Assembly (NCBI GenBank): GCA_002928515.1
Contig: PERI01000002.1
Coordinates: 310,001-374,000 of the forward strand
Direction of reading: 5' to 3'
Source: Hyphomicrobium sp.
GTDB lineage: Bacteria > Pseudomonadota > Alphaproteobacteria > Rhizobiales > Hyphomicrobiaceae
Length of the DNA stretch: 64,000 nt
Position 1 is the stretch's first letter. Every line of letters starts with the position of its first letter. Positions 61,140-63,484 of the stretch are shown piece by piece. The notes beneath the pieces were generated by a model. It saw only the letters and a list, made by a program, of their open reading frames with translations, was not told the DNA's origin and did no database searches. Both the position numbers and the translations under genes were made by a program.

Positions 61140-61667
61140 ATGGCATTTGGATTGTTGGGTTCTGGGAGTTCGTCGGTGGTCACCTATACTGTCCATGAGA
61201 GACCTGATCCAGCACCCGACCGCCTCGACCGGGGCGATGCGCTCGTGTTTATCAAAGACGGTTTTTCGTGGTTGACGGCGTTGTTCCCGCCGCTTGGCTT
61301 CATTTCAAAATCGCTCTGGCTTGCGACGTTTCTTTATCTCGTGGTGGTGTCGGCGATCGTTGCCGGATTGACTCACATTTCATTCGAGCCGACGTGGACG
61401 TCGATCCTTGTCACGGCATTGAACATTTATCTCGCGTTCGAAATCTCCAGCATTGAGCGGTGGTCATTGGATCGCGCGGGATGGCGCATGCTCGGTGTTG
61501 TGACAGGCCGCAATCTTGCCGATTGTGAGCGCCGTTTCATGGAGAGCTGGTTGCCGTCGCAGCCGATGATCGCCACGGCGGGCGAAGATCATGAAAATCA
61601 GTCCGCTCTGGCCAATAAATCTCGTTTTCTGACCTCGCGGCCTTGGCCTTTCCCCGCACAATCTTAA
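61140..61667 (+). CDS. DUF2628 membrane protein in the his operon
   Basis: 175 aa with two to three hydrophobic helices (about residues 57-75, 80-100). The N-terminal [38 protein letters not shown] pattern is DUF2628. The role is unknown; its place between hisB and hisH is widespread in Hyphomicrobiales. It begins 37 bp after hisB and ends 10 bp before hisH. Confidence 0.88.
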
Positions 61668-63282: not shown

Positions 63283-63360
63283 CGCGGCTCTCCTTATGCG
63301 GGGTGGCGGGTCGAGATTACGCGACTTAGACCCAGGGTGGGGCGGCTTTACGGTCGCCCT

Positions 63361-63375
63361 GAACATAGGAAGAAC
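63361..63375 (-). promoter_or_regulatory. LexA-type SOS box 1
   Basis: GAAC-N7-GAAC on the plus strand (GTTC-N7-GTTC on the minus strand), extended as GAACAT-N5-GAACAT. It lies 79-93 bp upstream of copy A and overlaps a possible -10 (CATGTT) of its promoter; a TGGACA -35 sits 17 bases further up. Confidence 0.65.
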
Positions 63376-63391
63376 ATGCCACGAATCATTG

Positions 63392-63405
63392 GCACTGTCC
63401 AGTGC
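63392..63405. promoter_or_regulatory. Perfect palindrome between the two LexA boxes
   Basis: GCACTG-TC-CAGTGC lies midway between the LexA-type boxes and covers the possible -35 region of the copy A promoter. It may bind a second regulator. Confidence 0.45.
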
Positions 63406-63407
63406 TT

Positions 63408-63422
63408 GTTCGAAAAATGTTC
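63408..63422 (-). promoter_or_regulatory. LexA-type SOS box 2
   Basis: GTTC-N7-GTTC on the plus strand; on the minus strand GAACAT-N5-GAACAA, matching box 1 in its extended form. 126-140 bp upstream of copy A. Confidence 0.6.
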
Positions 63423-63484
63423 TCTTTGAGTTCCCCTATGGTTTTCCACGGGGAACATCGATCCGGCCTTCCTGCGACACCGCG

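Follow-up and report, generated by a model that had tools for sequence, protein, structure and literature searches.

A solitary Cas2-like gene of the Hyphomicrobium family, predicted to be LexA-controlled and preceded by a conserved pair of opposed SOS-type boxes

The 64,000-nucleotide stretch of Hyphomicrobium DNA analysed here in full (the window) carries a group of LexA-type boxes upstream of a small gene, which raises the question of whether this gene belongs to the SOS response and what its product might do. An earlier note had described two boxes of the GTTC-N7-GTTC form and a strong ribosome-binding site before the gene. Both boxes were confirmed as exact: the proximal box B (GTTCTTCCTATGTTC) at 63361-63375, with its GTTC strand on the minus strand, and the distal, opposed box A (GTTCGAAAAATGTTC) at 63408-63422 on the plus strand. 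A third exact box, A2 (GTTCTCTTTGAGTTC, 63419-63433, plus strand), has one half-site in common with box A, bringing the promoter to three exact boxes in 73 bp, and the same triple array was seen in some orthologous promoters. The ribosome-binding site was found as AGGAGA at 63289-63294 on the minus strand, six bases before the ATG of the gene, here named P1 (62920-63282, minus strand). From its open reading frame and translation, its orthologues, an AlphaFold model, and Foldseek comparisons, P1 was read as a 120-residue solitary Cas2-like protein whose gene is predicted to be LexA-controlled. In the P1 leader (63283-63360, minus strand), inspection by eye of the leaders of the genus showed a conserved GGGTC...GACCC element together with a GC-rich stem whose sequence varies; the predicted RNA hairpin folds differed between leaders, and the leaders aligned poorly.

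P1 gave no family match in NCBIfam, a chance-level match alone in Pfam (E 0.17), and no match in a search of plasmids. Orthologues were recovered in 32 of the 36 genomes of the family, the genome of the window included (absent from G003, G012, G014, and G029), and in none of the 24 genomes from other families of the order. A pattern-based scan of the genome collection yielded 65 P1 loci, and the close orthologues stem from Hyphomicrobium records. Within a class-wide sample, in which up to 11 candidates per genome were scored, weak matches to the P1 profile occurred in at least 7 of 384 other genomes; the proteins concerned are short and Cas2-like and lack the C-terminal tail of P1. Phage relatives of such short Cas2-like proteins were noted in 59 records (37 from Staphylococcus, 10 from Enterococcus, and others; for example GQ478081), and the phage matches listed were annotated as hypothetical proteins or were unannotated.

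Structural comparison was performed with the AlphaFold model of P1 (pLDDT 75, pTM 0.62). In the Foldseek search, 15 of the top 20 chains were titled CRISPR or Cas2, with a best E-value of 1.6e-3 and none reaching 1e-3; the remaining chains of the top 20 were BPSL1038 (rank 8), TT1823, SSO8090, PF1117, and GhoS, and generic, unrelated ferredoxin-like folds appeared from rank 21 onward. On the basis of this model, a Cas2-like fold was assigned to P1 with moderate confidence. Sequence searches of solved chains with P1 found nothing, and no curated Cas2 profile of Pfam or NCBIfam was matched by P1, while comparison with the PADLOC Cas2b profile gave an E-value of 8e-4. In a wider alignment, 3 of 12 members matched the Pfam Cas2 profile (best 5.4e-5), and all 12 matched phrog_1090. 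The Cas2-type aspartate at the end of strand 1 (Asp9) was invariant in the 26 aligned P1 sequences. A search for cas1 found the gene in none of nine genomes, the control search being positive in 9 of 14. P1 would thus resemble Cas2-type proteins in its working and probably shares their descent, but is not taken to be a CRISPR Cas2; its most likely role would be that of a nuclease or nucleic-acid-binding dimer in the damage response.

Upstream of the promoter lies P3 (63485-63850, minus strand), which loci comparison and modelling describe as a conserved helical, helix-turn-helix-like protein with the C-terminal motif QMSLF. It lies on the same strand as P1 and was recovered in 58 of 66 loci, within 320 bp of P1 in 52 of those. 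The predicted model was helical; a Foldseek search gave no significant match (best E 0.4, with many helix-turn-helix entries), and the copy in the window had no match in Pfam or NCBIfam. A C-terminal motif of the QLSLF type was present in 58 of 58 P3 proteins versus 0 of 2185 other mechanical open reading frames of the same loci, and QMSLF and QLSLF are presumably beta-clamp-binding motifs. Co-regulation of P3 through a box of its own was considered but is not supported, as a box occurred within 350 bp upstream in only 5 of 58 loci, all five being GTTCGTCAAGCGTTC. Downstream of P1 lies P2 (62297-62701, minus strand; E 1.5e-4 to the P1 profile), a diverged tandem paralogue that lacks Asp9 (HHTPK) and could represent either a partner of P1 or a remnant. 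Also in this part of the window, a DUF2628 protein (61140-61667, plus strand) was observed between two candidate hisB and hisH genes.

A second reading of the product would make P1 no nuclease but a non-catalytic adaptor with a Cas2 fold, perhaps one linked to the sliding clamp. The C-terminal tail of P1, about 35 residues long, ends in [QE]-x-E-L-P-[FL] in 46 of 65 proteins by a loose pattern, an ending that we take to resemble clamp-binding peptides, and the clamp-type motif of P3 would suit such an arrangement; the tail pattern is missing in the other 19, however, and the invariance of Asp9 argues for catalysis, leaving the adaptor a possible but rather doubtful alternative. A nuclease or nucleic-acid-binding dimer is the role carried forward below.

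Whether the boxes are a property of this gene was assessed from the orthologous loci, and the conservation on which the earlier note had staked its proposal was observed. An exact box B was present within 400 bp of P1 in 64 of 65 loci (the exception being L082). An exact opposed box A lay 46-48 bp from box B in 53 of the 65 loci and at 58 bp, one half-site register off, in a further four, giving an exact opposed pair in 57 of 65 loci and none in eight. Taking box B as the reference point, all 64 loci that hold it showed a box A 46-48 bp away that departed from the motif at one position at most. With one locus taken per protein cluster, box B and the exact pair were found in 46 and 40 of 47 loci, respectively, at a 90% identity cut, in 26 and 23 of 27 at a 75% cut, and in 15 and 14 of 16 at a 65% cut. 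In whole genomes, the exact paired pattern occurred in 31 of 60; 29 of these belong to the family (36 genomes) and 2 to other families (24 genomes), and the reversed control of the paired pattern gave no occurrence in the 60 genomes. In all 29 family genomes the pair adjoins P1, as determined by comparing the places of the two. G036 and G051, the two genomes of other families that carry the pattern, were examined by reading one frame at each pair site, and the P1 search found P1 in neither.

Column conservation was computed on the 45 of 66 promoters with exact boxes 47 bp apart. Because these promoters were selected on their half-sites, the invariance of the half-sites in this alignment proves nothing. 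The unselected columns between the boxes were strongly conserved, namely an A after the first GAAC, CTGGAC, GANTC, GCAT, and a TA before the last GTTC, and the columns flanking the box pair mostly carried under 0.5 bit. From these columns and their positions, CTGGACA at 63396-63402 (minus strand) is proposed as a candidate -35 element and CATGTT at 63373-63378 (minus strand), which overlaps box B, as a candidate -10 element. TGGACA and CATGTT would then be separated by a 17-base spacer, and box A would lie just upstream of the -35 element. By a loose pattern, CTGGAC was found between the boxes in 53 of 64 promoters; the list returned by a generic sigma-70 scan did not contain the candidate pair. 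An EcfG-type promoter, for which the motif is GGAAC...CGTT, was rejected at P1 after the motif was found by eye not to be conserved among orthologous promoters.

The conserved GANTC (63383-63387) is part of TGATTCG (63382-63388, minus strand), which fits the extended GcrA/CcrM motif YGAKTCK. In 57 of 64 promoters a GANTC precedes box B by 11-13 bases, and for the full YGAKTCK each of the two orientations was seen in 20 of 64; in the window, GANTC is depleted (65 sites versus about 302 expected). The genome carries gcrA and one gene with a RAMA domain, which we take to be the domain of CcrM and which would link that gene to CcrM. The P1 promoter is possibly gated by GcrA/CcrM on this evidence. 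In the portion of PMC7987155 that was consulted, the extended GcrA motif is quoted as YGAKTCK, and GANTC at SOS promoters such as those of ruvC and imuA is described as perhaps conserved merely through overlap with the LexA box. Unlike that overlap, the GANTC of the P1 promoter sits outside the LexA half-sites.

The identity of the regulator was addressed through known SOS genes. The genome contains lexA, with a GTTC-N7-GTTC box of its own at C1:355687. Among 30 lexA-family loci, an exact box was found within 400 bp at 26, among them all 16 canonical lexA loci read from the genus, a set made without the lexA genes of G001, G002, G016, and G020. The four lexA-family loci without an exact box were L186 and L187 (second lexA-like genes), L184 (16 bases upstream), and L165 (a near-match). 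For recA (loci L188-L217, the contig-end locus L191 giving 88 bases of upstream sequence), an exact box was found within 400 bp in 5 of 30 loci, and in the genus Hyphomicrobium within 800 bp in 0 of 20, whereas lexA keeps its box; for uvrA, an exact box was found within 700 bp in 10 of 30 loci. The regulon here is not the textbook one, because recA and uvrA are often without an exact box.

Scoring with a LexA matrix, a check proposed in the earlier note, was performed with a matrix of 32 distinct boxes taken from lexA, recA, and uvrA in other genomes; left out of it were the lexA and uvrA sites of the window genome, a second site at L161, and the G010 uvrA site. Among the 61 sites of the genome, box B ranked 5th, A2 10th, the box of lexA itself 12th, and box A 13th. 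Random spacers reached the score of box B in 0.9% of cases and that of box A in 16%, so that the fit of box A is moderate, as is that of the lexA box. The top seven include the sites at NrdJ, at ssb (lying 270 bp upstream), and at a PA0069 radical SAM gene; another is found at a Y-family polymerase, assigned from profile matches below curated cut-offs, and two (L023 and L024) are without a clear SOS gene. As a separate observation, a PA0069-family radical SAM protein at L146:1454-2674 has a LexA-type box near its start and ends in GGQLALF, a clamp-type motif.

It is improbable, in our estimate, that a regulator other than LexA reads the opposed GTTC-N7-GTTC elements. Such a regulator would accord with an unusual promoter, in which a fixed-distance opposed pair is confined to a single gene in each family genome and is accompanied by conserved GANTC and CTGGAC, and with the want of an exact box at recA in the genus. 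Against it stand the same type of box at every canonical genus lexA read, the fit of the box B spacer to the matrix derived from sites at lexA, recA, and uvrA, and a Caulobacter SOS box, GTTCttgttatGTTC, which, as given in the part of PMC12700426 consulted, is nearly identical to box B. LexA is the regulator assumed in what follows.

The count of boxes must itself be read with care. GTTC-N7-GTTC matched five times in the whole window, versus a shuffle mean of 2.82, and five or more matches arose in 11 of 100 shuffles; in the whole genome the motif is rarer than its reversed control (61 versus 121 sites). A single box alone would mean little, because the bare pattern is common and shows no enrichment in window or genome; the signal is the box cluster. 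In 300 Markov-1 resamples of the window, two boxes fell within 75 bp in three resamples and three boxes in none, which bears out the contention of the earlier note that the clustering is unlikely by chance, now for three boxes rather than two. The P1 promoters (65 of 400 bp each) held 128 boxes versus 8 in the remaining 309,686 bp of these loci, a density about 190-fold higher. A chance or neutral origin of the cluster, for which the lack of enrichment in the genome is the one argument, was rejected as next to impossible on the resampling, the density, and a conservation of the boxes that spans P1 proteins down to 43% identity.

The proposal of LexA boxes before an undescribed SOS gene is supported by the conservation of the boxes in orthologues and by the same type of box at lexA. 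We consider it very probable, from sequence comparison, that P1 is, in the Hyphomicrobium family, an SOS gene under LexA repression, with a two-dimer lock, a solitary Cas2-like product, and a suggested GcrA/CcrM timing. In the undamaged cell, one LexA dimer would occupy box B, covering the -10 region and the transcription start, and a second would sit at box A, directly before the -35 element; the promoter would be held shut because both dimers lie in the footprint of RNA polymerase. Upon DNA damage, RecA-stimulated self-cleavage of LexA would free both boxes, and P1 would be made from its strong ribosome-binding site to act, through a Cas2-like fold with an invariant Asp9, as a putative nuclease or nucleic-acid-binding dimer in the damage response. 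Such double repression suggests that P1 would be costly if made without control, and the position of GANTC between the -35 and -10 elements suggests that GcrA and CcrM methylation may also set the cell-cycle timing of firing. A bolder and distinctly tentative extension is that P1 could be a family-wide SOS effector derived from a domesticated, CRISPR-free Cas2 nuclease, in which the lock of two LexA dimers and a GANTC licence would require damage and cell-cycle stage to coincide, and which might act with P3, perhaps at stalled replication forks.

The open-access PMC literature was searched by titles and the starts of abstracts, and within these no solitary Cas2-fold gene under LexA was found; Hyphomicrobium, LexA, and the SOS response occurred together solely in a review on plastic-waste resistance genes. 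A family-conserved Cas2-fold gene under LexA-type boxes offers a concrete candidate for the role of orphan Cas2-like proteins, and its promoter lends itself, as a small natural system, to testing how two LexA sites act together with a methylation site.

Among known systems, the SOS regulon of Caulobacter and other alphaproteobacteria is alike in having GTTC-N7-GTTC boxes over the promoter and the same box type at lexA. According to the part of PMC12700426 consulted, a single LexA box is the rule in Caulobacter, at about 97% of SOS promoters, whereas the P1 promoter has two opposed boxes at fixed spacing; P1 differs from that regulon also in that it was found in none of the 24 genomes sampled from the other families. 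In the colicin genes cea8 and cka, as described in the consulted part of PMC4482635, two LexA sites and a second regulator delay a costly product. The P1 promoter is alike in combining two LexA-type sites with a candidate second regulator, which would be GcrA/CcrM instead of the AsnC or IscR of the colicin genes; unlike these, P1 is chromosomal and conserved in a bacterial family, and its product is no colicin. P1 matches phrog_1090, an uncharacterised phage protein family, at E 6.5e-10; searched against phage records, P1 itself gave weak matches (best E 4e-3). Closest in kind is BPSL1038, a solitary Cas2/VapD-like nuclease which, from the portion of PMC10491678 consulted, shows that such folds can be nucleases. 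It is alike in a Cas2-like fold without CRISPR, the fold of P1 being that of a model, and in the Cas2-equivalent aspartate. In place of the D(X20)SST motif of BPSL1038, P1 has D9(X26)SNT, of which only T38 is nearly invariant besides the aspartate. Two further differences from BPSL1038 are the C-terminal tail of P1, some 35 residues long, and the LexA-type boxes in its promoter.
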